IMG/VR virus record: IMGVR_UViG_3300035182_000826
Coordinates: 97,453-161,452 of that record
Strand: one strand, 5' to 3'
Source of the DNA: a virus
DNA length: 64,000 bases
This document shows, piece after piece, positions 7,866 to 60,318 of the stretch. The first letter of the stretch is position 1; every line of letters starts with the position of its first letter. A program made the translations under genes and the position numbers. The notes beneath the pieces were generated by a model. It saw only the letters and a program-made list of their open reading frames with translations, was not told the origin of the DNA and made no database searches.

Positions 7866-7880
7866 TAATCTAATCAGCTA

Positions 7881-7912
7881 AAATAAGGGCGCCATTGGCG
7901 CCCTTATTTTTT
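7881..7912. terminator. bidirectional terminator between sheath gene and homing endonuclease
   Basis: Perfect 13-bp stem AAATAAGGGCGCC / GGCGCCCTTATTT with a 3-nt loop, flanked by A/T runs on both sides. It serves the converging sheath gene and the minus-strand endonuclease, whose stop codon lies inside the right arm. Confidence 0.9.
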
Positions 7913-9265
7913 GAATATCCAATTCCCATAGTTCAAGACTTTTTCAAACCCAAGTGATGTCATTATCTGATCTTCAGTCATATCCATGTCAAACTCTGGA
8001 TATTGCTGAAGCAGTTTTTGCTTTTGTGTTTCGCCGCGTGACAACACAATGTTTCCGCGTTTCCACACGTAGCCTGGCTTAGTCTTACCAACTAAAGTAA
8101 AACCAGCTCTATGATAAATTGTGTCTGTTGGATCTGGTGACCATCTAGCGTCACAGTAAGTGATGCATTCCTGTACATTAAAGTGTGAAAAGCATTTTTG
8201 AAATCCACCAATAATAGTGATTCCTGGCTTCACACACCATCGATAGATTTCTAGCACTTTGTCTTTGCCAAATCTGCTTTTGCCAACAGTCATCACAGCT
8301 AGAACCTGCCCATTAAGGGTCAAGCAGATGCTAGTGCCTCTGACATAGCCTTGTGTATGGTACTTTGTCAAAAATTCATGAGCTACCAAAGATGCAGTGG
8401 TGCCAAGAAGAACTGAACACTTTCTGGCATAGATCCTCTCTTTTTTCATCAACAGTGACTGCACCCGAGATAACACCGCCTGCTCATTTGTAATCAACTC
8501 AACGTCTTGAATTGTGACTACCTTGATGCCATTCACTTTGGCATCTTGGATTTTGTCTAAATCTCGCGTTTGATCTTGATGCCAGTGTGAGCCGTTTACC
8601 TCAAAGCCAATGTTAGCTTTAGGAGAAAAAATATCTATTTCTCTCCTGTCATTAAGTCCTTGACGATAATTTGAAATCACTGTATCGTCTACTTCTTGAG
8701 CTGCCTTAAAAACCAACCCCTGAATATTTGATACTGAGCATTTTGGACAAGCTATGTATTTTGTTTTTTGGAATGGGCGTTCAAATTCAACACCACAAAT
8801 GTGCTTCCACTTAACAATATCACTGGCTTTAGTTGGTGCTTCTGTTATCAATATGAATCCACGGCTTTTTGCTTCTTCAATTTTCCTACTAAGCGCCTTA
8901 GCTGTTTTTGACTTGGCCATTTTTTCAGAAACAGCTCGTCTGAAATCCTCGTTAGACCACAAATTATCTGTTCCATATTTCCGCTCAAGTGTTTCTTTTC
9001 TTTTTGAGATTGTCACACTTGAGGATTGCCCACAAGACTTAGAACAATTTGATCTATATCCATGGGTAAAATCCCAATACTTGGTTAGATTTCCGCATGC
9101 GCATAGTGGGCGTGTGTGAAATAAATTCCAGATCTTCTCTGACACGCTACTTCCACTAAGCTCAGACAACCATGGTGCCTTATTGGCATTCCATCTTGCC
9201 TTCCTAGAATCAAATGTGCCGTTTGTGAAAAACAGTTCTTCTGCGAGGTTTTTGTAGGATTTCAT
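7904..9265 (-). CDS. free-standing homing endonuclease (PD-(D/E)XK / Vsr-like)
   Basis: Inserted in opposite orientation between sheath and tube genes, which are adjacent in T4. The N-terminal half has Cys-rich zinc-binding pieces (CAC-G near 55-58, CGQSSS near 78-83, CPKC at 173-176). A nuclease core follows: REIDIFSP (208-215) and FEVNGSHWH (221-229), the E/D and H pattern of Vsr-like EDxHD or PD-(D/E)XK homing enzymes. The C-terminal 180 residues are a separate domain. The gene is visibly more AT-rich than its neighbours, consistent with a mobile element. No TAAATA box precedes it. Confidence 0.75.
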   Translation of the reverse strand: MKSYKNLAEELFFTNGTFDSRKARWNANKAPWLSELSGSSVSEKIWNLFHTRPLCACGNLTKYWDFTHGYRSNCSKSCGQSSSVTISKRKETLERKYGTDNLWSNEDFRRAVSEKMAKSKTAKALSRKIEEAKSRGFILITEAPTKASDIVKWKHICGVEFERPFQKTKYIACPKCSVSNIQGLVFKAAQEVDDTVISNYRQGLNDRREIDIFSPKANIGFEVNGSHWHQDQTRDLDKIQDAKVNGIKVVTIQDVELITNEQAVLSRVQSLLMKKERIYARKCSVLLGTTASLVAHEFLTKYHTQGYVRGTSICLTLNGQVLAVMTVGKSRFGKDKVLEIYRWCVKPGITIIGGFQKCFSHFNVQECITYCDARWSPDPTDTIYHRAGFTLVGKTKPGYVWKRGNIVLSRGETQKQKLLQQYPEFDMDMTEDQIMTSLGFEKVLNYGNWIFKK

Positions 9266-22815: not shown

Positions 22816-22887
22816 TGTAACGACCGTGTTCGGCCTGATCAGGTCGTTACACTTTCTGGTGTTCACCAGAAAAAATCATGTTATAGT
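22816..22887 (+). promoter_or_regulatory. TGTAAC/GTTACA operator with downstream -10 box
   Basis: TGTAACGACC (22816-22825) and GGTCGTTACA (22842-22851) are perfect 10-bp arms. A second palindrome TTTCTGGTG / CACCAGAAA follows (22853-22872). The -10 TATAGT is at 22882-22887, 30 bp after the right arm. It drives the GC-rich AAA+ gene. Confidence 0.65.
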
Positions 22888-22929
22888 TCCAACATCAACA
22901 AACAACGCCAAATACTAGGAGTGTTCAAC

Positions 22930-23952
22930 ATGGCAGTTGCTCAAGTTTCTTGGAATCCGAGTCAAGCCCGCTGGGAAGCCACCTTTGGTGGCCGAGTGAT
23001 CGCTTCGAACCGGAACTTCTCTGGTGGCGTCGACTACCTCCGTCGTGTGATCGAAGGCGGCTTCAGCCAGAAGGCCAAGAACCTCGGTATCGACAAGATC
23101 GAAGTCCTGCAAGCGTCGACTGCGCTGTCGAACGTTGTGAACGGCACGATGAACTCCGATGATGAGTTGGCTCCGGAGCCACTGCGCAGTCTGGATGATG
23201 AATTCCCGATCAACGAGCGCTTCGCGATCATGACTGACTACGTCGAGATGGTCGCTGAAAAGCAACTCGCATCAACGATCGTGACCGGTGAAGGCGGTCT
23301 CGGCAAGTCATTCACGGTGATGCGCACGCTGCGAGCCTGCGGCCTGGAAGACACCGACAAGTACCTCGGTGCCAAGGAAATCGGCTCTTCGTTCGATGGC
23401 TTCCGCGGCTACAAGGTCATCAAGGGGTACTCCACCGCGAAGGGTCTGTACCGCACGCTGTACGAGTATCGGAACCAGATCGTTGTGTTTGACGACTGTG
23501 ACTCCATCTTGAAGGATGCGAACGCGGTGAACGTGCTCAAGGCTGCCCTTGACAGCTACGATGTTCGAATCGTGTCGTGGAATGCCGAATCGATGATGGG
23601 TGATGATGACCTGCCGCGCAGCTTCGAGTTCACTGGCGGCGTGATCTTCATCTCGAACCTTCCGAAGTACAAGGTGCCGCAAGCCATTCGCTCTCGTGCC
23701 ATGTGTGCCGATGTGAGCATGTCCCGCGATGAAGTCATCGAGCGCATGCAAGTCATCATTGAGTCTGACGAGTTCATGCCGAACTTCTCGATGGAGCATA
23801 AGCGTGAAGCCCTCCAGTTCGTGTCTGATCATCGTGATGATCCGCTGATCGCTGAACTGAACCTTCGCTCGCTGGTGAACGCGGTCAAGGCCCGTGAAGC
23901 CAAGCCGGACTCGTGGGAGCGTCTCGCCCTGTACTCCATGGCGAACTCCTAA
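22930..23952 (+). CDS. early-type AAA+ ATPase
   Basis: Walker A GEGGLGKS (120-127), Walker B VVFDDCDS (185-192), a FTGGVIFISNLP sensor-1 block and a C-terminal helical lid. It is a paralogue of the late AAA+ protein at 9971-11539 but has a different, shorter N-terminal domain. The DNA is markedly GC-rich with host-like codons, and an operator plus -10 box lies upstream, so it is probably an early, well-expressed gene. AGGAG precedes ATG 22930. Cellular role unknown. Confidence 0.75.
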   Translation: MAVAQVSWNPSQARWEATFGGRVIASNRNFSGGVDYLRRVIEGGFSQKAKNLGIDKIEVLQASTALSNVVNGTMNSDDELAPEPLRSLDDEFPINERFAIMTDYVEMVAEKQLASTIVTGEGGLGKSFTVMRTLRACGLEDTDKYLGAKEIGSSFDGFRGYKVIKGYSTAKGLYRTLYEYRNQIVVFDDCDSILKDANAVNVLKAALDSYDVRIVSWNAESMMGDDDLPRSFEFTGGVIFISNLPKYKVPQAIRSRAMCADVSMSRDEVIERMQVIIESDEFMPNFSMEHKREALQFVSDHRDDPLIAELNLRSLVNAVKAREAKPDSWERLALYSMANS

Positions 23953-24033
23953 TCCCCTTATCAAACTCAAGATTTTGAAAGGTTGATCTGAACTCCTAGT
24001 GCCTGACTCCTTTGCAGTTGCCAGGCCCTCTTA

Positions 24034-24067
24034 GGCCCTACAGCGAAAGTTGTAGGGCCATTTTTTA
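24034..24067 (+). terminator. strong rho-independent terminator
   Basis: GGCCCTACA / TGTAGGGCC with an 8-nt loop and a TTTTTT run. It ends the AAA+ transcript. Confidence 0.93.
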
Positions 24068-24551
24068 TTCTGCCTCGGCGACACCGGTGAGGCCCGGCTC
24101 ACACAGGCTCGCCAAGACATATATCTTTATTGGCCACTATTTTTAAGCGCACCGGCGTCGCCTCGTGTCGCCGGCTCACGTTGAACCCGCTATTCGTCGG
24201 CTAATGCGCTCTGTGTGCGCCTCACCACTATGAACACCACCTCACTCCAATGAGAACCTGAAGAACTGGTCACCTCGCTCCAATGAAGAACTTGTTGGAG
24301 AATCCGTTGAACCCGCTATCTGTCGGCTAATGCGCTCTATGGGCGCTCACGCCTCACTTAAACTTTTTGCTAATGATAATGTCAGCTCTTGAAGGTCCTT
24401 GACCGTGTCATAGAACCCATTGAACCCGCTATTCGTCGGCTAATGCGCTCTATGAGCGCACTGTGCACCTCACACAAAGAGCCCCTTCTAATTTGGCGCC
24501 TTTCTTAAGTGCAGTTCGCCATAAGCGATAGAGCACCACCTCGGCGACACC

Positions 24552-24581
24552 GGTGAGGTCCGGCTCACACCGGACCTCACC
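24552..24581. repeat. 12-bp perfect hairpin, 'flip' orientation
   Basis: GGTGAGGTCCGG, loop CTCACA, CCGGACCTCACC. Its loop is the reverse complement of the loop in the copy at 24915-24944. Confidence 0.9.
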
Positions 24582-24732
24582 ACCAATAAGTTATGCACAG
24601 CACTTGGCCGGTGTGAGCCGGCGTCGCCTCGTGTCGCCGGCTCACGTTGAACCCGCTATTCGTCGGCTAATGCGCTCTGTGTACGCACACTGTGAGCGAC
24701 TATGACCAATGAAAACTGATCACCTGCTCCAA

Positions 24733-24775
24733 TGAAGAACTTGTTGGAGAACTTGTTGGAGAACTTGTTGGAGAG
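24733..24775 (+). repeat. 14-bp direct tandem repeat
   Basis: GAACTTGTTGGAGA occurs three times head to tail; single copies appear elsewhere in the array. Confidence 0.85.
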
Positions 24776-24914
24776 CCCATTGAACCTGCTATTCGTCGGC
24801 TAATGCGCTCTGTGTGCGCCTCACCACTAAGAACACTCTTCTAATTTGACACTTTCTTAAGTGCGGCACAAATGGCAGTTCGCCATAAGCAATGAGCACA
24901 GCCTCGGCGACACC

Positions 24915-24944
24915 GGTGAGGTCCGGTGTGAGCCGGACCTCACC
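24915..24944. repeat. 12-bp perfect hairpin, 'flop' orientation
   Basis: GGTGAGGTCCGG, loop TGTGAG, CCGGACCTCACC: exactly the inversion of the hairpin at 24552-24581, within otherwise similarly oriented flanks. Confidence 0.9.
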
Positions 24945-25024
24945 GCCAATAAGTTATGCACAGCACTTGGCCGGTGTGAGCCGGCGTCGCCTCGTGTCGC
25001 CGAGGGTGACAGGCGTCAATAGAA

Positions 25025-25032
25025 GATAAATA
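25025..25032 (+). promoter_or_regulatory. T4-type late promoter box
   Basis: GATAAATA, 21 bp before the kinase-like gene. Confidence 0.75.
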
Positions 25033-25053
25033 GCCAATCATTATGGAGTTCAT

Positions 25054-25701
25054 ATGAAAGTCAAAGATCTATTACAAGAGCTCATTGGCATCAAGAAGTA
25101 CCAAGGCGTTGACTTGCTGCAGCTTCTCATGAAGCTCCAAAGTGAAAAGAAGATCAACGTGAAGAATGGGTCTTTCAGTGTCGTAATCATTCCTGAGAAT
25201 GAAGACTTTGTGTACAGAGTGTGGACACAGGATGGTGGTTGGTTAGATTATATGGAGTACTGCATTGACCACCAAGACAATCCACACATCTTGAAAATCA
25301 AGAGTCGTGCGAAGAAGATTCCATTCATTTTTCAGAGACCTGAGGGGTTTGAGACAACACTGTATGTTGTCAAGACTGAGAAACTACAACCTTTGATTTC
25401 CAACATTGATCTGTTTGATCAGGTCAGAGTGTTCAGTAATATCGTGCAAAGAGATTTTCCAACATATGCGATTGTGAATAAGAGAATCAAAGAGCAAACT
25501 GGAATCAAGACTGATTTTGATAAGAGCTTCTATGACACGGTCAAGGACCTTCAAGAGCACTCACCCTTTCTACTTGACATCTCAACTTCGAATGTGATGC
25601 TGCGTGGAACTACTCTGGTTCTCTCTGATCCAATTGCAGAAGTCGGAACTAAGGAATTCAAAACAGCTGCTGACATTATCATTAGCAAAAAGTTTAAGTG
25701 A
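25054..25701 (+). CDS. protein-kinase-like fold protein
   Basis: 215 aa. The C-terminal segment FLLDISTSNVMLRGTTLVLSD has the D-x4-N and later DP pattern of a kinase catalytic loop and metal-binding aspartate. FVYRVWTQDGG near residue 50 could be the nucleotide-binding beta strands. No clear VAIK lysine or glycine loop is visible, so activity is uncertain. Late box upstream and GGAG before the ATG. It opens the RNA-repair region. Confidence 0.45.
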   Translation: MKVKDLLQELIGIKKYQGVDLLQLLMKLQSEKKINVKNGSFSVVIIPENEDFVYRVWTQDGGWLDYMEYCIDHQDNPHILKIKSRAKKIPFIFQRPEGFETTLYVVKTEKLQPLISNIDLFDQVRVFSNIVQRDFPTYAIVNKRIKEQTGIKTDFDKSFYDTVKDLQEHSPFLLDISTSNVMLRGTTLVLSDPIAEVGTKEFKTAADIIISKKFK

Positions 25702-25720
25702 GGTGTGAGCGCCCGTTATA

Positions 25721-25747
25721 CGCATTAGCCGACGAATAGCAGGTTCA
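25721..25747 (-). repeat. single inverted copy of the TATTCGTCGGCTAATG element
   Basis: Reads GCATTAGCCGACGAATAGC on the + strand, right after the kinase-like gene, in the opposite orientation to the array at 24.2-24.8 kb. Confidence 0.8.
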
Positions 25748-25819
25748 CGATTTAACCCAAAAAGGGTTTTAGCAAATAAACCCATTAAGTTACATTTTCT
25801 GTACTTCTAAGGTCAGAAA

Positions 25820-27082
25820 ATGGAAAGAAAACTAGTAACAGTTAGACCGATCAGCGCGCTTCTGCCAATCCCTGGGGCTGATGCAATTGAAACTGCTGTC
25901 ATTGACGGGTGGACAGTGGTTGTGAAGAAGGGTGAATTTCAAGTAAATGACCTGTGTGTTTACTTTGAGATTGACAGCTTCCTTCCAGACGGCAACCCAG
26001 CATGGCAATTCTTGGTTGACAAACAGAGTCAAGAATTTGAGGGTGTCAGAGGACATCGACTACGCACCATTCGGCTTCGCAAGCAGTTGAGCCAAGGGCT
26101 GGCTCTGCCGCTTAGCGCGTTTCCACAAATTAAAGACTCTGTTCCGAAGTCGTTTGATGTTAAACCTGGCGCGATTCACCAGGTTTATGGTGAATATCTG
26201 TCTGACACGGACTTCGCTCCACTTCTAGATGTCAAGAAGTGGGAAGCTACTCTGCCAGCACAGCTAGCTGGCCAAGCTGAAGGTCTGTTCCCGTCATTCA
26301 TCGTGAAGACTGATCAAGAGCGCTGCCAAAACCTCTGTCGTCAAATCTTCGGTTATGATCCACAAGTTGTGCCGGTTGATTCTTCAAATATCCCCCAAGA
26401 CGAGATTGATCGACTGCTGAGCACTGGCGAGTTCGTGAAGAATGAGGATGGTAGCATTTCAAAATTGCTGCCAGCGCAAGCGTCGCGTAATGATTGGTAT
26501 GAAGTCACAATCAAGCTTGATGGTTCCTCAATGACTGTCTTCAATGATGGTGGGTACTATGTGAATGAAGACGGCACAGATCATGTTGGTGTCTGCAGTC
26601 GCAATCTAGAGCTCAAGGACAACGAAGAGAACGCCCAGAACGCGTTCGTGAAGATGTTCAATGAGAGCGGCCTGAAGGACGCGCTGAAGAAGACTGGACT
26701 TGCAGTCGCCGTTCAAGGTGAGCTGATGGGCCCGAACATTCAAGGCAATCGTGAAAACCTGAAGGTGCATCAGTTCTTCGTGTTTAACATTCAAGCGCTT
26801 GCGCCAGATGTTCAGCAATTCCTGCCTCCACTGCAGCGTCTTGCAGTGCTTGAAAAGCTCTACGACGCTGGTGTGTCAAGAGAGTTGGTCATGCATGCTC
26901 CGATCCTCTTCTCCAATACCACTCTTGAGGCCCTTGGCATTGAAGATATCCAATCGCTCTTGGACTTCGCGAATGGTCCTTCACTGAACAATCCTGTTCG
27001 CGAAGGCCTGGTTTTCAAGCGGCATGACGGGCTGTTCAGCTTCAAGGCCATCAGCAATCATTACCTGCTGCAGGAGAAGTGA
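25820..27082 (+). CDS. RNA ligase, DRB0094/Rnl5 type
   Basis: ATP-dependent RNA ligase sealing 3'-OH and 5'-phosphate RNA ends. The N-terminal 120 residues look like the OB-type module of Deinococcus Rnl. The nucleotidyltransferase motifs follow: KLDGSS (Lys232 adenylation site), QGELMG (299-304), EGLVFK (395-400) and FKAIS (408-412). Full length at 420 aa. It lies 2.5 kb before an HD-Pnk end-healing enzyme, giving a complete heal-and-seal pair. The stop TGA overlaps an ATG, and the same frame stays open for 75 more codons (see 27082-27310). Confidence 0.88.
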   Translation: MERKLVTVRPISALLPIPGADAIETAVIDGWTVVVKKGEFQVNDLCVYFEIDSFLPDGNPAWQFLVDKQSQEFEGVRGHRLRTIRLRKQLSQGLALPLSAFPQIKDSVPKSFDVKPGAIHQVYGEYLSDTDFAPLLDVKKWEATLPAQLAGQAEGLFPSFIVKTDQERCQNLCRQIFGYDPQVVPVDSSNIPQDEIDRLLSTGEFVKNEDGSISKLLPAQASRNDWYEVTIKLDGSSMTVFNDGGYYVNEDGTDHVGVCSRNLELKDNEENAQNAFVKMFNESGLKDALKKTGLAVAVQGELMGPNIQGNRENLKVHQFFVFNIQALAPDVQQFLPPLQRLAVLEKLYDAGVSRELVMHAPILFSNTTLEALGIEDIQSLLDFANGPSLNNPVREGLVFKRHDGLFSFKAISNHYLLQEK

Positions 27083-27310
27083 TGGCATCATTCAAGTGCA
27101 CGAGTCCGTGCACTTGAAGAGTTCAGGAAGAGGAACCTTTTCTATCAGCTTTTTCACAAAAAGCCACATTGGGATAACTGCGTTAGCGCCCAGCGTTACT
27201 GGGCGAAAGAGTTCACCAATCTTGGCGGTGAATTTTCAATCACTGAGTCGTTCCTTCGGGACATTACTATAAGGACAAGCAATGAGCTTTCGTGTAACTC
27301 TGAAACCTGA
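27082..27310 (+). pseudogene. frameshifted or recoded small ORF with 10-bp hairpin
   Basis: ATG 27082 overlaps the ligase stop but its frame ends after 11 codons. The ligase frame itself, past its TGA, is open for 75 codons (27083-27307) and reads as protein: RVRALEEFRKRNLFYQLFHK, RYWAKEFTNLGGEFSITESF. There is no start codon in that frame. A perfect hairpin CAAGTGCACG / CGTGCACTTG with a 4-nt loop sits at 27093-27116, exactly where a +1 shift from the ATG frame would be needed. It could be a decayed gene, a sequencing indel, recoding, or readthrough extending the ligase. Confidence 0.4.
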
Positions 27311-27668
27311 CACCTATGTTGTTGGTGATCCACGACAACTTCTAGATCGCTCCACATGGGAAGAGATCAAGGAAGAGGACAATAGTGACATCATTGAATA
27401 TGATGGACATGAGTTGTGCTGGCTCGCCGTGAAGCCAGGCACGTTCTATGGCGATGAAGAAACTGAGCTTGATCTGATTTCAGGATCAGTGATCATCATG
27501 CCAGAAGAACTTGCAGTGAATTCGATTGCGCCATTGACGATTGTGGCAGATGATGGTCTTCGGGTCATCTTCAAAAATGATGTTCTTGAAGTTGGGAATG
27601 AGTCCTTTGACTTTGGCGACTCGTACTTTGATGATGAGGACGCAGACGATGAGTCATACGATTTCTGA
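27282..27668 (+). CDS. acidic hypothetical protein
   Basis: 128 aa, beta-rich with a strongly acidic C-terminus (DSYFDDEDADDESYDF). AAGGA before the start. Not recognised; such tails occur in DNA-mimic or partner-binding proteins, but nothing specific supports that here. Confidence 0.65.
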   Translation: MSFRVTLKPDTYVVGDPRQLLDRSTWEEIKEEDNSDIIEYDGHELCWLAVKPGTFYGDEETELDLISGSVIIMPEELAVNSIAPLTIVADDGLRVIFKNDVLEVGNESFDFGDSYFDDEDADDESYDF

Positions 27669-27670
27669 CG

Positions 27671-27678
27671 AGTAAATA
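27671..27678 (+). promoter_or_regulatory. T4-type late promoter box
   Basis: AGTAAATA, 25 bp before the next gene. Confidence 0.65.
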
Positions 27679-27703
27679 GTCCATAATCATCTTGGAGACG
27701 GTT

Positions 27704-28111
27704 GTGGACAGAAATACACTCATCAAAGAAGCGTGTGAAGCTGCTCTTGAAATCAATGAGCAGCTGAACTTTCTCTTAGACTCTTATGACATCTTCAGAG
27801 AAGGATTAATGACAACGCCAATCAGCACCTGCCATATCGTTGATGTAAACACTGCCATCAAAGAGATTACAGGGCTAACAAAGCTGATGTCGATTGTTCT
27901 TCAACAGTGGAAAAATGGAGTCTCTGAGTTTTCAGCCGCCGGTTTGGAGATCCATGTATTGAATGAGCTTCATGTTCAAATTTTGACACTGTTTAGATTC
28001 CTAGAGTTGATGAGTATTCACTCAAGCACTTTCGACTTGGCCCAGTTGAACGCGGCTGTTGAGAGATTCAGAATCGCAAATAGAGGCCTGAACAAGGTGA
28101 CGCATGATTAA
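27704..28111 (+). CDS. helical hypothetical protein
   Basis: About 135 aa, GTG start after TTGGAGAC; a TTG at 27692 is in frame. All-helical (IKEACEAALEINEQLNFLLD, LMSIVLQQWKNGVSEF). It overlaps the following kinase gene by 8 bp. Not recognised. Confidence 0.6.
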   Translation: MDRNTLIKEACEAALEINEQLNFLLDSYDIFREGLMTTPISTCHIVDVNTAIKEITGLTKLMSIVLQQWKNGVSEFSAAGLEIHVLNELHVQILTLFRFLELMSIHSSTFDLAQLNAAVERFRIANRGLNKVTHD

Positions 28112-28700
28112 GATTGTTGGGTTCTCAGGTGCGCAGGGCGCCGGCAAAAGTACCTTGCTAAATGCGCTAAGAGATGATTTTGTAGTTGACGACTTCAAAG
28201 TGTCCAGAGCCGTCCAAAAAGAACAAGGCTGCACGTTAGAGGATGCGGTTCAGTCTTGGGACAAAATGGTTGTGTTCCAAACAAGCATTCTTTACCAGAA
28301 GTATCTGCATGACTCAGAGTTGCTAAAGCAGCCAGGTGACAGCATCATTTTGGTCGAACGGACCTTTGCTGACATTTACGCTTACACGGCGCTCTGGTGT
28401 AAGCGCCTTGTTGCCAAGTCATTGGTAGAGCCAGAAGTGGCTGAGTCCTTCTTGACAGGTTATCTTGTGGCATGTCGCAAGTATCAAGACAAGCTTTACT
28501 CACTGCTGTTTGTGATTCCATTGATGGATCACATTCCACGAGAAGTAGACGCGCATCGCGCCGATTACGCCAGCGCGATGGAAGTGTATAACACCATTTC
28601 TACGTTCACCATCAAGGGAAATGTTCCATATGACACGATCACTGGAGTGACTGTCCAGGAACGAGCTGAGCGAGTCAAAGAGATCATTACACAATTGTAA
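28104..28700 (+). CDS. P-loop nucleotide kinase-like protein
   Basis: GAQGAGKS at residues 9-16 (P-loop), then VERTFADIYAYT (about 88-99), resembling the DR-type substrate/lid region of deoxynucleoside or NadR-type kinases. 198 aa. It may phosphorylate nucleosides or nucleotides; the substrate is not evident. Its stop codon lies inside the TGTAAC operator for the next gene. Confidence 0.6.
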   Translation: MIKIVGFSGAQGAGKSTLLNALRDDFVVDDFKVSRAVQKEQGCTLEDAVQSWDKMVVFQTSILYQKYLHDSELLKQPGDSIILVERTFADIYAYTALWCKRLVAKSLVEPEVAESFLTGYLVACRKYQDKLYSLLFVIPLMDHIPREVDAHRADYASAMEVYNTISTFTIKGNVPYDTITGVTVQERAERVKEIITQL

Positions 28701-28750
28701 CGATTGTTACAAAAAAGATTAGCACGTTGAATGCAAAATGGTGTTATGAT
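28695..28750 (+). promoter_or_regulatory. TGTAAC/GTTACA operator with -10 box
   Basis: TTGTAAC (28695-28701) and GTTACAA (28706-28712), 4-nt loop. The -10 TATGAT at 28745-28750 is 9 bp before ATG 28760, so the transcript is nearly leaderless. Confidence 0.55.
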
Positions 28751-28759
28751 TTCTCCATC

Positions 28760-28921
28760 ATGACACCATTTCAGAAACGCGAGCTCAGAAAGGTAAACAT
28801 CCGGCTGTTCAAGCTGGGCTGTGCCCTCGCGTTGAACAGCATTAAGATTTGGTGGTACTCGGGCTGGTGGGCGCCAATCACGGCAACCATCGTCGCGTTC
28901 GCCTTGAAAGAAGTGCTGTGA
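28760..28921 (+). CDS. small membrane protein, probably leaderless
   Basis: 53 aa. Basic N-terminus, then WWYSGWWAPITATIVAFALK as one transmembrane span. I chose ATG 28760, since an upstream ATG at 28727 would precede the -10 box. The stop overlaps the next GTG (GTGA). Confidence 0.55.
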   Translation: MTPFQKRELRKVNIRLFKLGCALALNSIKIWWYSGWWAPITATIVAFALKEVL

Positions 28922-29565
28922 CAAAATTTCATGGTGGCTTCACACCGTCAGCAACTTCTGCGTACACGGACTACTCGTACCTTTTCCCGCCTCGGCCTAC
29001 AAACGCGATCGCACGATCAATGTTGTCGTTTTACGAAGCCCGTGGTTGGGTTGCGCAGAAGAAAAAGAATGGAACCTGTACCGTTGTCTTCGCGAACGGC
29101 GACGACGTGATCTTCAAGACACGGCACAACGACGACCACAAGATGTGGACGCCGAAACAAGATCACGTCAAGTTCTTTCAAGGGCGCCCTGGCTGGAATG
29201 TTTACGTCTGTGAACTCTTGCACTCGAAAGTGAAGGGCGGCCCAAAGGACGAGCTGTACATCTTTGATCAGATCGTGTGTGATTCATTCCAATTGATTGG
29301 GAGCACATTCGAACAACGGCAGAAGATGCTTGATCACCGGTTTCCTGGGAAGGACACTGGAGACGTTTATCGACTGGCAGACAGGGTGTCCCGTGCAAAG
29401 TTGATTTACGACTACTTCGATGAGGTCTTCGAGGAACTCGAGCCTGAAGATGAAGGGTTGGTTCTGAAGGATCCGAACGGTGTCTTGGAGCGCTGTACGA
29501 AGGATGGAATGAACACGGGATGGCAAGTCAAGTGCCGGCTTCCCACAAAGAACTACTCAGCATAA
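28918..29565 (+). CDS. ligase-fold nucleotidyltransferase (RNA/DNA ligase-like)
   Basis: 215 aa. Shows the ordered motifs of the ATP-dependent ligase fold: motif I KKKNGT (48-53, with Asn for the usual Asp of KxDG), motif III-like VYVCEL and ELYIFDQIV (112-120), motif IV EGLVLK (179-184) and motif V WQVKCR (202-207). It has no C-terminal OB domain. It may be an RNA ligase or a divergent adenylyltransferase; the Asp to Asn change makes activity uncertain. GC-rich early-type codons. Start GTG 28918 is coupled to the upstream gene. Confidence 0.65.
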   Translation: MTKFHGGFTPSATSAYTDYSYLFPPRPTNAIARSMLSFYEARGWVAQKKKNGTCTVVFANGDDVIFKTRHNDDHKMWTPKQDHVKFFQGRPGWNVYVCELLHSKVKGGPKDELYIFDQIVCDSFQLIGSTFEQRQKMLDHRFPGKDTGDVYRLADRVSRAKLIYDYFDEVFEELEPEDEGLVLKDPNGVLERCTKDGMNTGWQVKCRLPTKNYSA

Positions 29566-29607
29566 CCCAGAAATAAGCCGTTTTTTAATCCGCTTTAGTG
29601 AATAATC

Positions 29608-29631
29608 AGGCCCTCAATAGAGGGCCTTTTT
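29608..29631 (+). terminator. terminator whose U-tract abuts a start codon
   Basis: AGGCCCTC / GAGGGCCT with an AATA loop and TTTTT, directly followed by ATG 29632. The right arm carries the only Shine-Dalgarno-like GAGG. Confidence 0.8.
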
Positions 29632-30735
29632 ATGCGCGAAATTTTTGATGCGCTCTTCTCAGAGTTCAAAGCCGGTGAATTGTGGAAAGCCATGGAAGAG
29701 ACTGTTGAAGACTCTCCTTGGCATCGTGAGGCAAATGTGGCTGTTCATACCCAAATGGTCATTGACCAAGTGGATGTGTCTCCGTTTGAACTCACTGAGC
29801 GTGAGCGATTTGTTGTGAAGCTGATTGCCATGTTCCATGATGTTGGCAAACCTGCCGCCCAGGAAGTGCTGTTTCGAGAAGATGGCACCAAGTACCGCAG
29901 ATATGCCGGTCACGAGCTGATTTCTGGTGTGCTGTTCATGGATGAGTACGTTGGCAGCGCTGCACTCCAACAGCATGTTGGCCTTACCACAGCAAGAGCC
30001 ATTCGCTGGGTCTTGGAGAACCATTTGCCTTATGGTCTCACGGACAAGCAAAAGGTGAATGGATTGATGCTCTCTGCGCATCAGCTGTTGGCCGATGCTG
30101 GCTTGTCAATGAATGTCTTTTGGGCTTCACTGTTGGCTGATTGCTGCGGGCGGATCAGTGATGATCACGCTGAAAAGATCCAAAAAGTCAAGGTCTGGAT
30201 CGAAGAGATGCAGAAATACTCGATCATGCCAATGCCTGGGCCTGCTGTCAAGCAAGTGATTTTGATGTGCGGCCCCTCTGGATCTGGAAAGACCACTTTC
30301 ATCAAACAGCACTTTTCACCGGAGGTGCCCGTGTACTCACGTGATGACTATATCATTGAGTACTACAAGGCGTCGCCGGTGTACAACGGTGAGACCAGGC
30401 AAGTGCTTTACGACAAAGCCTGGCAGTACGCTACCAGCAACGAGTTCGAAAAGGCATTCAAAGAGCGGCTTCATCACATGTTGAAATCCAACACATGCGT
30501 GATTGTTGACATGACGAATTGCTCCAAGAAGGCAAGAGGCAAAACCATCAATGTCGCTAGACAGTTTGGTTTCAGTGTGCATGCCATTGAATTTTGGGTG
30601 AGCTGGCAGATCATTGAGAGACGGAACAACACTCGTGAGCGGAAGATTCCACCGCTGGCACTGTTCAAGCAGTTCATGATGTGTTCTGTTGTGGCACCGT
30701 CAGAAGCTGATCACATCACTTCAATTATGGCGTGA
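29632..30735 (+). CDS. HD-Pnk: HD phosphoesterase fused to 5'-OH polynucleotide kinase
   Basis: RNA end-healing enzyme. The N-terminal HD domain has His31, His39 and the HD pair at 69-70 (AMFHDVGKP); such domains remove 2',3'-cyclic phosphates in characterised HD-Pnk enzymes. The C-terminal kinase has GPSGSGKT (214-221), SRDD (236-239) and an Arg-rich lid RRNNTRERKIPP. 367 aa, complete. With the RNA ligase at 25820 it can repair RNAs cut by host anticodon nucleases, as T4 Pnkp/Rnl1 do. The start codon sits at the foot of a hairpin, so translation may be structure-controlled. Confidence 0.85.
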   Translation: MREIFDALFSEFKAGELWKAMEETVEDSPWHREANVAVHTQMVIDQVDVSPFELTERERFVVKLIAMFHDVGKPAAQEVLFREDGTKYRRYAGHELISGVLFMDEYVGSAALQQHVGLTTARAIRWVLENHLPYGLTDKQKVNGLMLSAHQLLADAGLSMNVFWASLLADCCGRISDDHAEKIQKVKVWIEEMQKYSIMPMPGPAVKQVILMCGPSGSGKTTFIKQHFSPEVPVYSRDDYIIEYYKASPVYNGETRQVLYDKAWQYATSNEFEKAFKERLHHMLKSNTCVIVDMTNCSKKARGKTINVARQFGFSVHAIEFWVSWQIIERRNNTRERKIPPLALFKQFMMCSVVAPSEADHITSIMA

Positions 30736-30873: not shown

Positions 30874-31734
30874 ATGTCACGTTCCCTTGCCGACCTCGCA
30901 GCAGCCTTTGCCGCAAAGAACAAGCCTTCCAACTCAAACCCTGATGCACACTGGAAGCAGTTTTTTCCATTCTGGAAGGCCCCAGTCGACAGCACGACGA
31001 TCTTTCGATTCCTTCGTGATGGCGATGAATCCAACCCCCTTGACTTCCTAGTCGAAAACTACACCCACGAACTCGTTGTGAACGGGAAGCGTGAGACTGT
31101 CGCATGCCTGCGCATGTATGACGAGGAATGCCCGATCTGCGCTCTGTCAGCTCACTTCTATGACAAGAAGAGCCCTGACTACAACGAAGACCTCGGCAAG
31201 CGCTTCTATCGCAAGCGTTCTTACATCGCTCAAGGTTTGGTTGTTGAAAGCCCAGTTGAGCATGATCATGAACAACTGGTGAAGCTTGTTGAATTTGGCC
31301 CTCAAATCTTCAAGCAGATTGAAGCTGCATTCAAGCGCAACGACTTTGACCGTTACCCATATGAGCTCAAGGGTGGATACAACTTCCGCTTCGAGAAGAC
31401 TCAGACTGGTCAAGGTCAAAACAGCTACACGACTTCGACCTTCCAAGGTCGTCCGTCTGACATCGCTGATGATGTGATTGAAAAGATCAAGCTGAACAAC
31501 CTGTCTGAAAAGCGTACGCCGAAGACAGATCGCGCTGCTATTGACGCCCTGTTGACTGCTGCACTGGCTTCGATGAGTGGTCCTGCTCCTGCACCGGCTC
31601 CTGCTGCTTCGCAAATGGCCGCGGCTGCGCCAGTTCAAGCTCCTGCAGCTCCTGCAGCTCCTGCAACTGGTGGTAGCTCGCTGTCTGACGCACTGCGCGA
31701 ACGCATTCGTCGTGCACAAGAACAGGCCGAGTAA
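30874..31734 (+). CDS. 32: gp32-like single-stranded DNA-binding protein
   Basis: Coats ssDNA during replication and recombination. N-terminal basic segment, then an OB core with VACLRMYDEECPICALSAHF (Cys/Cys-x2-Cys/His zinc site), as in T4 gp32. The tail has an Ala/Pro-rich linker (about 225-262) and a C-terminal SLSDALRERIRRAQEQAE in place of T4's acidic tail. 286 aa (T4: 301). It sits directly before uvsX. GGAG precedes the ATG. Confidence 0.82.
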   Translation: MSRSLADLAAAFAAKNKPSNSNPDAHWKQFFPFWKAPVDSTTIFRFLRDGDESNPLDFLVENYTHELVVNGKRETVACLRMYDEECPICALSAHFYDKKSPDYNEDLGKRFYRKRSYIAQGLVVESPVEHDHEQLVKLVEFGPQIFKQIEAAFKRNDFDRYPYELKGGYNFRFEKTQTGQGQNSYTTSTFQGRPSDIADDVIEKIKLNNLSEKRTPKTDRAAIDALLTAALASMSGPAPAPAPAASQMAAAAPVQAPAAPAAPATGGSSLSDALRERIRRAQEQAE

Positions 31735-31793: not shown

Positions 31794-32858
31794 ATGGCAC
31801 TAGCTTTCCTAAAGAACTTTAGAAAGAAGCTTGAGAAAATTCAAGACGTGACCACGTCCTTTGGCCCGCCGATGTTCTGGTACAGCACTGGGAATTACGC
31901 GGTTGATAAGGCAGTTTCTGGCTCTTTCTTGCATGGCATTCCACAAGGCCGCATCACCTGTCTTGCTGGTCCTTCTGGCTCAGGCAAGTCGTTCCTACTC
32001 TGCAACATCCTGAAGAACGCACAAGACCAAGGCGCCTTTGTGTTTGTTGTCGACTCTGAACATGCTCTTGACTCTGGGTTCATGTCACGGATCGGCATGA
32101 AGACAGATGATGAAAACTTCCAGTACGCTGGTGTGACGACATTCTCACACGTTGTGACTGTGGTTTCTGATTTCATCAACGAGTATGTGAGCGCATATGG
32201 GTATGATAACCCAGACGCACCAAAGGTGATCATTGCGCTTGACTCACTTGACATGCTGTTGACAGACACTGAAGATGTGAACTTTGACAAGGGTGAGCAG
32301 AAGGGCGACCAGGGTCAACGCGCGAAGCAGGCTAAGCACATGCTACGGACCCTTGTTTCTCGCATTAAGCGTCTACCAATGGCGTTCATTGTCACACACC
32401 AGGTTTACCCGAACACTGATCTGATGAATGGTCTTGGTATGTGGATCGTGAACAACGCAATCAAGTACTCTGCGTCTCAGATCTTCCTGATCACGAACAC
32501 TCGCCTGAAAGAAGAAGGTGAAGTGAAGGGTGTGAAGATGAAAGTAGAAACCTACAAGTCACGGTTTGCTAAGCTTGGCACTCAAGTGACAGTTGAGGTT
32601 CCTTACGACAAGGGCATGAACAAGTTCTCTGGCTTCCTAGACATGATGGAAGAGATGGGGATTGTGAAATCGGCCGGTGCTTGGAAGAAATTCGAGCTGC
32701 CAGGTCAGGAGCCAATCAGCTTCCAGTCAAAGAACCTCGATGACGAGTTGTTCAGGAAGATCATGACTCACCCGCTCATTGCAGAAGAGGAACGTGATCT
32801 GGCACAGTTGCTGCAATCAGAGGAAGTTCTGCATGAAGAAGCAGAAACGGTTGAGTAA
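31794..32858 (+). CDS. uvsX: UvsX recombinase (RecA-like)
   Basis: Strand-exchange recombinase for recombination-dependent replication. Walker A GPSGSGKS at 59-66, VFVVDSEHALDSGFM (Walker B region of RecA/UvsX), and VIIALDSLDML. 354 aa (T4: 391). The order SSB, uvsX, uvsY-like, uvsW forms a recombination operon. Confidence 0.92.
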   Translation: MALAFLKNFRKKLEKIQDVTTSFGPPMFWYSTGNYAVDKAVSGSFLHGIPQGRITCLAGPSGSGKSFLLCNILKNAQDQGAFVFVVDSEHALDSGFMSRIGMKTDDENFQYAGVTTFSHVVTVVSDFINEYVSAYGYDNPDAPKVIIALDSLDMLLTDTEDVNFDKGEQKGDQGQRAKQAKHMLRTLVSRIKRLPMAFIVTHQVYPNTDLMNGLGMWIVNNAIKYSASQIFLITNTRLKEEGEVKGVKMKVETYKSRFAKLGTQVTVEVPYDKGMNKFSGFLDMMEEMGIVKSAGAWKKFELPGQEPISFQSKNLDDELFRKIMTHPLIAEEERDLAQLLQSEEVLHEEAETVE

Positions 32859-52248: not shown

Positions 52249-52813
52249 TATTGACATTGATACAGCGCCGTCGTTTTCGCCAAGCCAGTACTTCAGGTGG
52301 ACACAGGCGTCGCTGGTGAAAGATGGAGAATTGACACCACACCCATGTGGTGTCTATCCACAGTCAATTCCAGTCGATGAGCTCACGGGCCTAGCCGCAA
52401 TTCCATACACTGAAGCTGAAGAGCTTGGGTATATGAAAATTGACTTCCTGCACTTAGGGGTGTATCAACACTTCACTTCAAAGGCAGAAATTCGTGAGCT
52501 GTTGAAAAAAGAACCAGATTGGTCTCTATTGGCGTTGAATTCAACTTACCCAAAGCTGTTCCAACTAGCAAAGCATGCTGAGCTGGTTTCAACACTGCTG
52601 CCGCAATCAGTCCAGGAGCTGGCTGATGCGTTGGCATTGATTAGACCTGGCAAAAAACACCTAGTTCAGCTTTATCAGAAGAACAAAGCAGCTGCTAGAA
52701 AAGTGCTTTGGATGAAAGATGAGAGCGGGTACTCTTTCAAAAAGGCTCACGCGTTCTCATATGCCATGGTTCTAGTTCTTCAGCTTCATCTAATTTCACA
52801 AGGAAGACTGTAA
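52235..52813 (+). CDS. C-half of a split, miniature family C (DnaE-like) DNA polymerase
   Basis: 192 aa. It begins with MSLGDIDIDT, equivalent to the DnaE catalytic PDFDVDF (Asp5/7/9 region). TPHPCGVYPQSI (HaaGvviap), ELGYMKIDFLHLG (GLVKFDFLGL, third catalytic Asp), LFQLAKHAELV, LALIRPG (VALyRPGP) and GYSFKKAHAFSYAM (YGFNKSHaaaYAl) follow in DnaE order. About 90 residues of fingers between the first two blocks are missing, and no C-terminal HhH, OB or tau-binding part is present. It continues exactly where the protein encoded at 47205-47765 stops. Confidence 0.65.
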   Translation: MSLGDIDIDTAPSFSPSQYFRWTQASLVKDGELTPHPCGVYPQSIPVDELTGLAAIPYTEAEELGYMKIDFLHLGVYQHFTSKAEIRELLKKEPDWSLLALNSTYPKLFQLAKHAELVSTLLPQSVQELADALALIRPGKKHLVQLYQKNKAAARKVLWMKDESGYSFKKAHAFSYAMVLVLQLHLISQGRL

Positions 52814-53808
52814 TGTCACTGAAACACACGCCCCTTGCCACATTCGTTTATGGCTCCCATTTGTACGGGACAAATTCAGCAACATCAGATTATGACTACA
52901 AAACGATGTACTTGCCGTGCATCGATGATCTGTTGCTTGGTCATAAGATGAAGACGTACAAGGTGCGGCATGACGCAAATCACCAACCTATTCCTGATGA
53001 TGCGCCAATGCCGGCAGGCGGCACTGAGATTGAAAACATTCCAGTTCACAACTTTGTTGACCACTGGCTGTCTGGCCAGGCGTATGCCGTTGAGCTAGTG
53101 TTCTCGCGCAATTTCTCGCAGAACTACACCGATCATGGAAGTCAAGAGTTCAAGGCCCTGTTGGACTTTATGCTCAAGAACCCACATCGCAATGTGTACG
53201 GTATGCTTGGGTTTGCACAGAAACAGGTGATCGATTATGTCAGACGCGGTGAGCGTAAAGTAGCAGCTGAAAAGCTTGTACAAGCCATCAAACGCTGGCG
53301 CGCCATCAGCCCTGAAAAGCTACGTCTTGACACTGTTGTTAACGACGAGCGCATCATTGTTCACTTGGCAGCAGAGCTTGATCTTGAAACAGGGTTCACT
53401 CAGAACAACAATCGCACGTTCTTAACGCTGAAGCTGAACGGGCGAGAGTATCTTGAGACAACGACGCTCGAGCATCTCGAGAATGCTGTTCAAAAGCTGA
53501 TCGACGTCTATGGTGAGCGATCCGCAAAAGCAGCTGAGGAACAGGTTGATTGGAAGTCGCTGATGCACTCGAAGCGCGTCTTTGAGCAGGTCAAGGAGTA
53601 TCTGAGAACCGGCACCATGACGTTTCCCCGGCCAAATGTTGAAGAGCTGCTCAAGATCAAGCAGGGTCTTAGGCCTCTTGAAGACGTCAAGGCTGAATTG
53701 CTTGCGCTTGACAATGAAGTGCTGGCGCTTTGTGAAGCATCAACATTGCCTGACCCGAGGACGCTTCGCGAAAAGGCCAACGAGATGCTTCTGTCCTTCT
53801 TCATCTAA
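52813..53808 (+). CDS. RlaP-type nucleotidyltransferase (Pol beta superfamily)
   Basis: 331 aa. FVYGSHLYGTNSATSDYDYK (residues 11-30) is the GS...DxD active site of the minimal nucleotidyltransferase family PF10127, whose cellular members (RlaP) accompany RNA ligases. A helical C-terminal half follows. It overlaps the DnaE-like gene by 1 bp. It may add nucleotides to RNA ends before ligation, or tag another target. Confidence 0.75.
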   Translation: MSLKHTPLATFVYGSHLYGTNSATSDYDYKTMYLPCIDDLLLGHKMKTYKVRHDANHQPIPDDAPMPAGGTEIENIPVHNFVDHWLSGQAYAVELVFSRNFSQNYTDHGSQEFKALLDFMLKNPHRNVYGMLGFAQKQVIDYVRRGERKVAAEKLVQAIKRWRAISPEKLRLDTVVNDERIIVHLAAELDLETGFTQNNNRTFLTLKLNGREYLETTTLEHLENAVQKLIDVYGERSAKAAEEQVDWKSLMHSKRVFEQVKEYLRTGTMTFPRPNVEELLKIKQGLRPLEDVKAELLALDNEVLALCEASTLPDPRTLREKANEMLLSFFI

Positions 53809-56863: not shown

Positions 56864-56882
56864 TTTCCTTTTGGGGAATTCA

Positions 56883-58250
56883 ATGAGCAAACTGACGTCT
56901 TTCGTTCAAGCAATCAAGACCTGTGAGTCCTTCACCGGCGCCGGCAAAAAGAAGGTCATTCAAGAGGCGTTGGCCAGTCTCGATGAAGTCGGTCGCAAGT
57001 TGGTGTTCTACGCAATGAATGCGTATTACACGTATGGTGTCAAGAAGTTCGAGCGCCCGTCGCTCTACTCTCAAGAGGATGGCGATCCTGATCTGATCTT
57101 CACTGTGCTCGATGAGCTCAGAAGCCGTGAAGCAACTGGAAACATCGCCAGGATGAACGTGACACTCCTGCTGTCAGCGTTCACGGCTGAGACCGCGTCC
57201 TACATCGAGCGTGTGATAGAGAAGGACCTCAAGGCTGGCTTCTCGATCGACACCTTCAACAAAGTCTGGCCGTCCGAGCCCATTCCAGATTTCAAGGTTA
57301 TGCTCGCAGACAAGTGCGAGACTGAGGAGCAGTATGAAGAGCTGCTGCAATCGCCGGTTCTTGGTGATTGGAAATATGACGGCGAGCGGAACATCACGCT
57401 GGTGCCGTCGCCTGACAAGATCAGCCACATCAGCCGATCTGGTCTTGAGGCGTTCCACTTGGACGGTCTGTTCGACGAAGAGCTCCGTGACATCTACATG
57501 TACACGAAGGAACATTGGGGTTGGGATGGATTCGTCCTCGACTCTGAGCGGTTCGCCAGAGACTGGAATGACACAGTGAACGCAAAGAAGTCTGGCAATC
57601 AGGACTCCAAGGCGCGGATGTTCTTGATGATGTTCTTCATCATGCCGTACAAGGACTGGGAGGCCCGTAGTTGCTCCATCACCATGATGGAGAATCGTGA
57701 CAACATCGCCGAGATTCTCGGCGCGCTGCAACACATTACCCGCCTCCGCATTTCCAGCACCAAGCTGCTGAAGTCCTATGCTGATGTCATTGATTACTGT
57801 GATGCGGTGACGATGCCTGGTTTTGATGGTCGCAAGAATGGGCATGAAGGGTTGATCCTCAAGCGGACTGATGCTGTGTATCGCTGGGATCGATCGCTTG
57901 ACTGGTGCAAGGTCAAGAAGTTCCACACGGCCGATGGCATCATTGTTAGCGTCAAGCCTGGGCGCGCCAAGTCCAAGTATGAGAACACTACTGGCCGGCT
58001 GAATGTCAAGGGTCGCCTGGAAAATGGTGAAGTGTTCGAATGCGGCGTTGGAAGTGGTCTCAAGGACTGGGAGCGTGATGCGATTCGCGATAACCCTGAG
58101 CAGTACCTGAATGGTGCTGTCACCGTTGAAATCAAGTACCAAGATACCTCAAAAATCAAGGGGCGTGAAACATTGTCCCTGCGGTTCCCGACTTTGCATC
58201 GTATTCGGACCCGCGATGACAAGATCATCAACCCAGCCGAAGTGGAGTAA
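56883..58250 (+). CDS. ATP-dependent DNA ligase
   Basis: Seals nicks in phage DNA. An N-terminal helical domain (about 1-150), motif I WKYDGERN near residue 163-170, HEGLILK (motif IV), and WCKVKKF (motif V), then an OB domain ending LSLRFPTLHRIR (motif VI region). 455 aa, close to T4 gp30 (487). GC-rich early codons. Confidence 0.92.
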   Translation: MSKLTSFVQAIKTCESFTGAGKKKVIQEALASLDEVGRKLVFYAMNAYYTYGVKKFERPSLYSQEDGDPDLIFTVLDELRSREATGNIARMNVTLLLSAFTAETASYIERVIEKDLKAGFSIDTFNKVWPSEPIPDFKVMLADKCETEEQYEELLQSPVLGDWKYDGERNITLVPSPDKISHISRSGLEAFHLDGLFDEELRDIYMYTKEHWGWDGFVLDSERFARDWNDTVNAKKSGNQDSKARMFLMMFFIMPYKDWEARSCSITMMENRDNIAEILGALQHITRLRISSTKLLKSYADVIDYCDAVTMPGFDGRKNGHEGLILKRTDAVYRWDRSLDWCKVKKFHTADGIIVSVKPGRAKSKYENTTGRLNVKGRLENGEVFECGVGSGLKDWERDAIRDNPEQYLNGAVTVEIKYQDTSKIKGRETLSLRFPTLHRIRTRDDKIINPAEVE

Positions 58251-58732: not shown

Positions 58733-59216
58733 CCTCGGCGACACCGGTGAGGTCCGGCTCACTTCGAATTTAAGAGGCGTTAAGATATACACCAGGGCTC
58801 TTTCGTGAGCCCTGGGGCGTTTTAGGTGACACGAGAAAAGAATAGGTCCTCTTAGGTGCAGCGCGCACAGAGCGCATTAGCCGACAGATAGCGGGTTCAA
58901 TTGGTTCTTCAACAAGTTCTTCATTTGGAGAGAGTGGCCAGTTGCTCACACAGCGCGTGCCCATAGAGCGCATTAGCCGACAGATAGCGGGTTCAACATC
59001 ATCCGGCGACACGAGGCGACGCCGGCTCACACCGGCCAAGTGCTGTGCATAACTTATTGGCGGTGAGGTCCGGTGTGAGCCGGGCCTCACCGGTGTCGCC
59101 GAGGCTGTGCTCTATCGCTTATGGCGAACTGCACTTAAGAAAAGGCGTCAAATTAGAAGGTGGCCATTGTTACTCACAGTGCGTGCCCACAGAGCGCATT
59201 AGCCGACGAATAGCGG
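58733..59216. repeat. second repeat array, inverted relative to 24.1-25.0 kb
   Basis: Gene-free 560-bp gap (58719-59279). It has CCTCGGCGACACCGGTGAGG at 58733, its complement at 59085, and three copies of GCGCATTAGCCGACRRATAGC near 58870, 58970 and 59195. A long segment (about 58995-59160) is the near-perfect reverse complement of 24490-24640, including the DnaA-box-like site and the 12-bp hairpin at 59062-59091 (one mismatch). A terminator-like stem AGGGCTC / GAGCCCT lies at about 58794-58814. Confidence 0.85.
59062..59091. repeat. 12-bp hairpin of the second array
   Basis: GGTGAGGTCCGG, loop TGTGAG, CCGGGCCTCACC; one mismatch against the two copies in the first array. Confidence 0.85.
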
Positions 59217-59505: not shown

Positions 59506-60318
59506 ATGCAGCTCAGAATTGCGTCAGACCTACACATTGAGGGTAAGCCGTTATACGACAAATACCCAGATGATCCGTTGCTATTCAGTGGACACTTTCT
59601 TCCAGTCGCCCCTAATGAAGATCAGCAGACGTTGATCTTAGCAGGTGACATCACCTCAAAACTCGCGAATCTGGAATTGATCTTTGAACAGGCGTCAAAG
59701 CGGTTTAATCGCGTGATTTACGTCCCAGGTAATCATGAGCGTTATTGGCATGACTTTGATGAGTGGACTGTGCAGGCTGAAAATCTCAAGCTAAAGTTCC
59801 CAAACATCTTCGCTGCAATGGATGGTGTTGAGCGAATTGAGCTTGACGGTGTCAGATTCATTTACGGCACCCTTTGGACTCTTGGTGGCCGTGATCTAAC
59901 AGAATGTCAAAATGTCCAAGACTCGCTGAACGACTTTTACCTGATCAGATACAATGGTGGCGTTTTTTCAGTGAGCTCCATGATTGACAAGTGCAATAAG
60001 CAAATTGATCTGATTGACACTTACCTGGCAGAACCAACAGAGTGTCATACCACTGTGGTGGTCACTCACCACCTGCCGTCATTCAAATTCTGCGCTGCGC
60101 GATTTGGTGGGCGTATCGACGGTGGTTTCGCTTCTAATTTTGATGATGTGATCAAGACTCGGAAGCCAGATTACTGGGTGTTTGGGCATACGCATGACAC
60201 TATTCAGCGAAAGCTTTATGGCACCATGTTCATCTGCAATCCAGCTGGTTACCCTGGTGAATATCACACACAGCACAACCAGTACATTGCCAATGGTCCT
60301 TTGGTGGTGAGTGTCTGA
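59506..60318 (+). CDS. calcineurin-like metallophosphoesterase
   Basis: 270 aa. SDLHIEG (Asp8, His10), AGDI (46-49), GNHE (75-78), VVTHHLP (about 184-190) and FGHTHD are the five metal-binding motifs in order. Possible substrates are nucleotides or 2',3'-cyclic ends. AGGAG before the start; 1-bp overlap with the next gene. Confidence 0.88.
   Translation: MQLRIASDLHIEGKPLYDKYPDDPLLFSGHFLPVAPNEDQQTLILAGDITSKLANLELIFEQASKRFNRVIYVPGNHERYWHDFDEWTVQAENLKLKFPNIFAAMDGVERIELDGVRFIYGTLWTLGGRDLTECQNVQDSLNDFYLIRYNGGVFSVSSMIDKCNKQIDLIDTYLAEPTECHTTVVVTHHLPSFKFCAARFGGRIDGGFASNFDDVIKTRKPDYWVFGHTHDTIQRKLYGTMFICNPAGYPGEYHTQHNQYIANGPLVVSV

Follow-up and report, generated by a model that had tools for sequence, protein, structure and literature searches.

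A putative RNA heal-and-seal pathway with HD-Pnk in place of T4 Pnkp in a large T4-like phage, and a widespread phage family of KxNG ligase-like proteins

Phage-encoded RNA repair that counters host tRNA cleavage is an established strategy (PMC7824862). In T4 the repair is carried out by Pnkp and the RNA ligase Rnl1, and a different healing enzyme, HD-Pnk, is already known to be paired with Rnl1 in phage RM378 and in Campylobacter phages. The polynucleotide kinase/HD-phosphatase of RM378 (NP_835697) is cited as having demonstrated 5'-kinase and 3'-phosphatase activities, the 3'-phosphatase residing in the HD domain (Blondal et al. 2005, as cited in PMC1997131). Here we analyzed the final 64 kb (the window) of the 161,452-bp metagenomic phage record IMGVR_UViG_3300035182_000826, in which the genes of an Rnl5-type RNA ligase, a small ligase-like protein (the KxNG protein) and an HD-Pnk lie within 5 kb (Table 1). 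The other 97 kb of the record, outside the window, were also examined, and the record's genes for terminase, tail sheath, UvsX, helicase and clamp loader mark the phage as a large, contractile-tailed relative of T4.

We consider it probable (roughly 0.6) that this phage heals and seals RNA in the manner of T4, with HD-Pnk replacing T4 Pnkp. The reading is built on protein families, intact catalytic residues, the predicted fold of HD-Pnk and co-occurrence in relatives, from which the activities, the substrates and the joint working of the enzymes are predicted. The cut RNA, for which tRNA of the host or the phage cleaved by a defence ribonuclease is the most plausible candidate, would carry a 5'-OH at one end and a 2',3'-cyclic or 3' phosphate at the other. 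The phosphate would be taken off by the HD domain, and the 5' end phosphorylated by the kinase domain. Rnl1 would seal single-strand breaks, such as those in anticodon loops, Rnl5 would seal nicks in duplex RNA, and an RlaP-type nucleotidyltransferase may restore lost nucleotides. The presence of HD-Pnk and Rnl5 in a phage already having Rnl1 fits the view that phages maintain several RNA ligases to deal with different cuts.

The sequence-only reading had proposed an HD phosphoesterase-kinase fusion, and all HD and kinase residues of the protein are indeed intact. An N-terminal HD domain is joined to a C-terminal T4-like kinase with P-loop, catalytic Asp and lid Arg (AAA_33, 3.5e-21). In a 30-row alignment of relatives, the HD metal-binding residues (H39, H69-D70, H94, H131, D170) and the kinase residues G219-K220, D238 and R302 are invariant, and G214, G217 and R335 are kept in at least 90% of rows. 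The AlphaFold (AF2) model has a confidence score (pLDDT) of 95.3 and is matched by C. thermocellum and T4 polynucleotide kinase in Foldseek. By analogy with relatives described in the literature, 5'-kinase and 2',3'-phosphoesterase activities are predicted. Among the 40 phage and 40 bacterial HD-Pnk loci that were found, the phage proteins near that of the window form a clade separate from the bacterial ones (100/99), a grouping to be read with caution given the long branches. HD and Pnk are split into adjacent genes in the 368-kb relative G001, and likewise at loci L164 and L165. In 34 of 39 bacterial loci the HD-Pnk gene is immediately adjacent to a PF09414 RNA ligase gene, an arrangement that links the enzyme to ligation; together with the HD-Pnk and Rnl1 pairs of RM378 and Campylobacter phages, it supports the earlier idea of healing followed by sealing.

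For the sealing step, the Rnl5-type ligase with a full motif set was recovered as described beforehand. It scores 165.5 bits against NCBIfam TIGR02306 (RNA_lig_DRB0094; equivalog cut-off, 151.15), matches the Pfam families PHA02142 OB-fold (3.9e-35) and RNA_ligase (7.5e-19), carries its OB domain N-terminally and its nucleotidyltransferase domain with motifs I to V C-terminally, and aligns over both domains with Naegleria NgrRnl (5cot, 4.1e-72). Outside the window, at record positions 7305-8507, lies a T4 gp63-type Rnl1 (phrog_562, 1.5e-62; PF09511, 4.2e-22) with the motifs KRDG...EGLI...WKVKT. HD-Pnk plus ligase had been put forward as an alternative to T4 Pnkp/Rnl1; the replacement of Pnkp by HD-Pnk is retained, but because the phage also encodes an Rnl1-type ligase, the pair cannot be regarded as a plain substitute for Rnl1.

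Rnl1 and Rnl5 both require 5'-phosphate and 3'-OH ends, which leaves HD-Pnk as the sole healer seen. It was the only match to the AAA_33 kinase in the record, with no second Pnk kinase, and neither RtcB nor cRec was found in searches of the record; these absences are provisional because the record may be incomplete. As the only Pnk kinase detected in the record, HD-Pnk likely heals ends for both ligases. Rnl1, Rnl5, the KxNG protein and HD-Pnk co-occur in the relatives G001, G003 and G005.

Other ligase-related genes were noted alongside. In G001, a cRec cyclic-phosphate domain gene (L018:6890-10945; PF20274, 3.7e-19) stands beside Rnl1 and close to Rnl5, in support of the published link between cRec and RNA ligases. 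The same genome has an Rnl2-like PF09414 ligase (L019:4422-5450) whose N-terminal part, judged by eye, resembles an HNH nuclease domain. In the present record, a 754-aa protein on the minus strand (L005:13338-15602, record 73338-75602) has an N-terminal RNA_ligase match below threshold (0.0026) and the motifs EKLDG...IEGYVLRD; this long protein may carry a further, fused ligase-like domain.

Several observations weigh against an RNA heal-and-seal pathway. In the nearest phages HD-Pnk adjoins SSB-UvsX, genes of DNA recombination, and not a ligase, with Rnl5 and KxNG 14-43 kb distant; the grouping of the genes within 5 kb is peculiar to this phage and is not conserved in the relatives; and Rnl5, KxNG and HD-Pnk do not form an operon. 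The D. radiodurans HD-Pnk, DRB0098, is encoded in a putative DNA repair operon induced by radiation, and it was left undecided whether the enzyme repairs DNA or RNA (PMC1997131). Because HD-Pnk is conserved beside SSB-UvsX, a DNA role is a real rival: the enzyme would mainly be an end-healer of the recombination machinery, cleaning 3'-phosphate/5'-OH DNA ends for the ordinary ATP-dependent DNA ligase that the genome encodes in full. The HD-Pnk, SSB, UvsX order is kept in the window, at L008, in G005 and at about 10 phage loci, including G001 and L164 with their split HD and Pnk genes, and DRB0098 phosphorylates 5'-OH DNA (PMC1997131). Yet bacterial HD-Pnk pairs with an RNA ligase, RM378 and Campylobacter phages pair it with Rnl1, and no SSB or UvsX was found in the searched flanks of more distant phage HD-Pnk loci, so that we judge a mainly DNA-directed role unlikely and favor RNA healing.

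The proximity of the three genes calls for separate consideration. In G003, G005, G037 and G042 the order is HD-Pnk, SSB, UvsX, helicase, NrdA, NrdB, KxNG (where present), clamp loader, RlaP, DNA ligase, metallophosphoesterase and Rnl5, as judged from contigs that were each read in part, with HD-Pnk of G003, G037 and G042 placed through a separate search. The window instead has both Rnl5 and KxNG immediately upstream of HD-Pnk. That the cluster is a functionally meaningless accident of local rearrangement has about an even chance of being correct: the relatives hold Rnl5 past the metallophosphoesterase and KxNG, if they have it, after NrdB, and in this genome repeat arrays lie immediately 5' of both Rnl5 and the metallophosphoesterase gene. 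Against an accident, two genes have both relocated beside HD-Pnk, and when Rnl1, Rnl5, KxNG and HD-Pnk were placed at random, three starts fell no more than 3.9 kb apart about 0.7% of the time, a post hoc figure. A terminator-like hairpin with a T-run reaching the start codon of HD-Pnk makes it doubtful that KxNG and HD-Pnk are co-transcribed. With GAGGG in its 3' arm, the hairpin may also mask the ribosome-binding site of HD-Pnk, although such sites are no commoner in this region than in shuffled sequence and the hairpin call is weak. The P-loop kinase-like protein encoded between Rnl5 and KxNG has a homologue (L018:11882-12514, 8e-20) downstream of Rnl5 in G001.

The KxNG protein had been read as a 215-aa ligase-fold protein with KKNG in place of KxDG, and this is upheld by its open reading frame, by the family alignment and by the AlphaFold match to ATP-dependent DNA ligases. 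A profile search of IMG/VR recovered at least 69 loci of its family in large phages. Neither Pfam, PHROGs nor NCBIfam holds a dedicated model, and the only Pfam match, DNA_ligase_A_M at 24.8 bits, is just under the cut-off of 26.2. The family, widespread among phages and marked by the clear catalytic motif KxNG, therefore has no name in these libraries. A 53-row alignment shows no variation in the Lys and Gly of motif I, in Arg69, in Glu99 of motif III, in Asp117 of motif IIIa or in Gly180 of motif IV, and almost none in the other residues of motifs IV and V; Asn occupies the third position of motif I in 49 rows and Asp in 2. Because the Asn is conserved family-wide with the other catalytic residues retained, KKNG is a family trait, and we rejected the possibility of a decayed, inactive motif.

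What kind of ligase this is can be approached from its fold. The AF2 model (pLDDT, 93.1) comprises the adenylation domain alone, and the 215 aa include neither an OB nor a C-terminal domain; its best Foldseek matches are archaeal ATP DNA ligases (9dfa, 2.3e-8), and in profile comparison an ATP DNA ligase (3.4e-7) precedes NgrRnl (2.6e-5). The protein has no PF09414 or PF09511 match at cut-off and no family-specific extra domain that would place it in Rnl1-Rnl5, and it differs from ATP-dependent DNA ligases in being without a C-terminal OB domain and motif VI and in a motif I that is not KxDG. Judged by sequence and model, it is a separate adenylation-domain-only ligase-like enzyme that resembles ATP DNA ligases more closely than RNA ligases. 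Of the RNA heal-and-seal cluster that the sequence-only reading had drawn, the three genes are all in place, with signals far above chance; an RNA ligase is at most a candidate identity for the KKNG protein, and its profile is nearer to DNA ligases. A role as the only DNA ligase of the phage was also rejected; the full ATP-dependent DNA ligase elsewhere in the window means that the KxNG protein need not serve in that capacity.

The KxNG protein might be a third RNA ligase of the same RNA repair pathway as HD-Pnk, given nucleotidyltransferase motifs conserved in 53 of 53 rows, its position next to HD-Pnk in this phage, its company of Rnl5 and HD-Pnk in relatives and the weaker NgrRnl matches. 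We find this doubtful, since ATP DNA ligases come first in both the profile and the fold comparisons, most KxNG phages are without an intact HD-Pnk, and the neighbors include a Fapy/Nei DNA glycosylase gene, downstream of KxNG in G001, and a Nudix hydrolase gene, which lies just 3' of KxNG in many loci, megaphages among them, and belongs to a neighbor family common to 26 loci. Tentatively, the family may consist of distinct OB-less phage ligases or adenylyltransferases with a motif-I Asn, which would seal or adenylylate a special substrate such as damaged RNA or DNA and would partner HD-Pnk in some phages.

An RlaP-type nucleotidyltransferase and a metallophosphoesterase had been suggested to share the repair function. 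Both genes were identified; RlaP passes PF10127 marginally (23.2 bits; cut-off, 23) and has the Pol-beta GS...D-x-D motif, YGSHLYGTNSATSDYDYK. Their neighborhood gives the suggestion little support, because the stretch from HD-Pnk to the metallophosphoesterase is a conserved replication block whose synteny also takes in the clamp loader and DNA ligase genes. A functional cluster of RlaP, metallophosphoesterase and Rnl5 looked promising in relatives and was rejected as unspecific.

Table 1. Features of the window and their coordinates
Feature	Position in window	Strand	Description
Rnl5-type RNA ligase	25820..27082	+	420 aa; N-terminal OB domain, C-terminal nucleotidyltransferase; motif I KLDGSS
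P-loop kinase-like protein	28104..28700	+	AAA_28 / thymidylate-kinase-like; AAA_28 3.2e-7
KxNG protein	28918..29565	+	215 aa, GTG start; adenylation-domain-only ligase fold; motif I KKNG (QKKKNGT)
Terminator-like hairpin	29608..29627	+	8-bp stem, then T-run ending at HD-Pnk start codon (consensus scan)
HD-Pnk	29632..30735	+	367 aa; HD phosphohydrolase ~1-195 (N-terminal), 5'-OH polynucleotide kinase ~205-365 (C-terminal)
Single-strand DNA-binding protein (SSB)	30874..31734	+	phrog_1192 1.4e-29; conserved neighbor 3' of HD-Pnk
UvsX/RecA-like recombinase	31794..32858	+	homologous recombinase gene, same order in relatives; conserved neighbor
RlaP-type (Pol-beta) nucleotidyltransferase	52813..53808	+	YGS...SDYD motif; PF10127; phrog_388 1.7e-45
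ATP-dependent DNA ligase, ordinary	56871..58250	+	motif I KYDG; phrog_114 2.3e-67, PF01068 3.8e-10
Calcineurin-like metallophosphoesterase	59506..60318	+	PF00149 2.5e-11, phrog_1649 4.9e-42

The repeat arrays consist of a 29-nt dispersed repeat, TTGAACCCGCTATTCGTCGGCTAATGCGC, present in 28 copies at no more than four mismatches and interleaved with a GC-rich palindromic repeat. They occupy 24060-25760 and 58872-59194 of the window (the latter being record 156324-156646), and 22826-24487 and 92600-93514 of the record. The first 28 bases of the repeat have no exact match in IMG/VR. The arrays may have helped move genes. Also upstream of Rnl5, the open reading frame 25054-25701 weakly matches phrog_15752, a family of phage protein kinases (E 0.025), and contains a kinase-like stretch, LLDISTSNVML...LSDP; inverted partial copies (31 and 79 nt) of its 3' end lie upstream at 24308-24415.

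Among the known systems, RM378 has a phage HD-Pnk of the same domain order as that of the window and an Rnl1 in the same genome. The two HD-Pnk proteins share only about 27% identity, the RM378 gene is not beside SSB-UvsX, and the RM378 record has no KxNG or Rnl5 match. In Campylobacter phage NCTC12673, HD-Pnk lies 1.3 kb from rnlA and is annotated as a putative poly A polymerase; many Campylobacter phage records label it so or as a hypothetical protein (e.g., GU296433, 126838-127878). The HD part matches poly A polymerases, which accounts for the label. The label looks wrong, and the "poly A polymerase" of RM378 and many Campylobacter phages is by family an end-healing enzyme.

Bacterial HD-Pnk enzymes, among which that of Runella belongs, combine HD and Pnk in the same way and share the invariant residues (Bacteroidota and Gilliamella/Snodgrassella loci), but they abut an Rnl2-like PF09414 ligase gene, whereas the HD-Pnk of the window belongs to the separate phage clade. 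In layout and neighborhood the KxNG protein is likened to D. radiodurans DRB0100, an adenylation domain only, encoded beside the HD-Pnk DRB0098 (PMC1997131). DRB0100 is reported to seal nothing, and its mutagenesis primers read EKLDG around lysine 40 (PMC1997131), in contrast to KxNG. D. radiodurans DRB0094 and Naegleria NgrRnl share with the Rnl5 of the window the OB plus nucleotidyltransferase layout and the full motif set, although about 45 additional residues separate the two domains in the window protein as compared with NgrRnl. Finally, the phage has in common with T4 an Rnl1 of the gp63 kind and differs in the order and nature of the healing domains: T4 Pnkp carries its kinase N-terminally and a HAD phosphatase second, whereas HD-Pnk begins with an HD phosphohydrolase and ends with the kinase.

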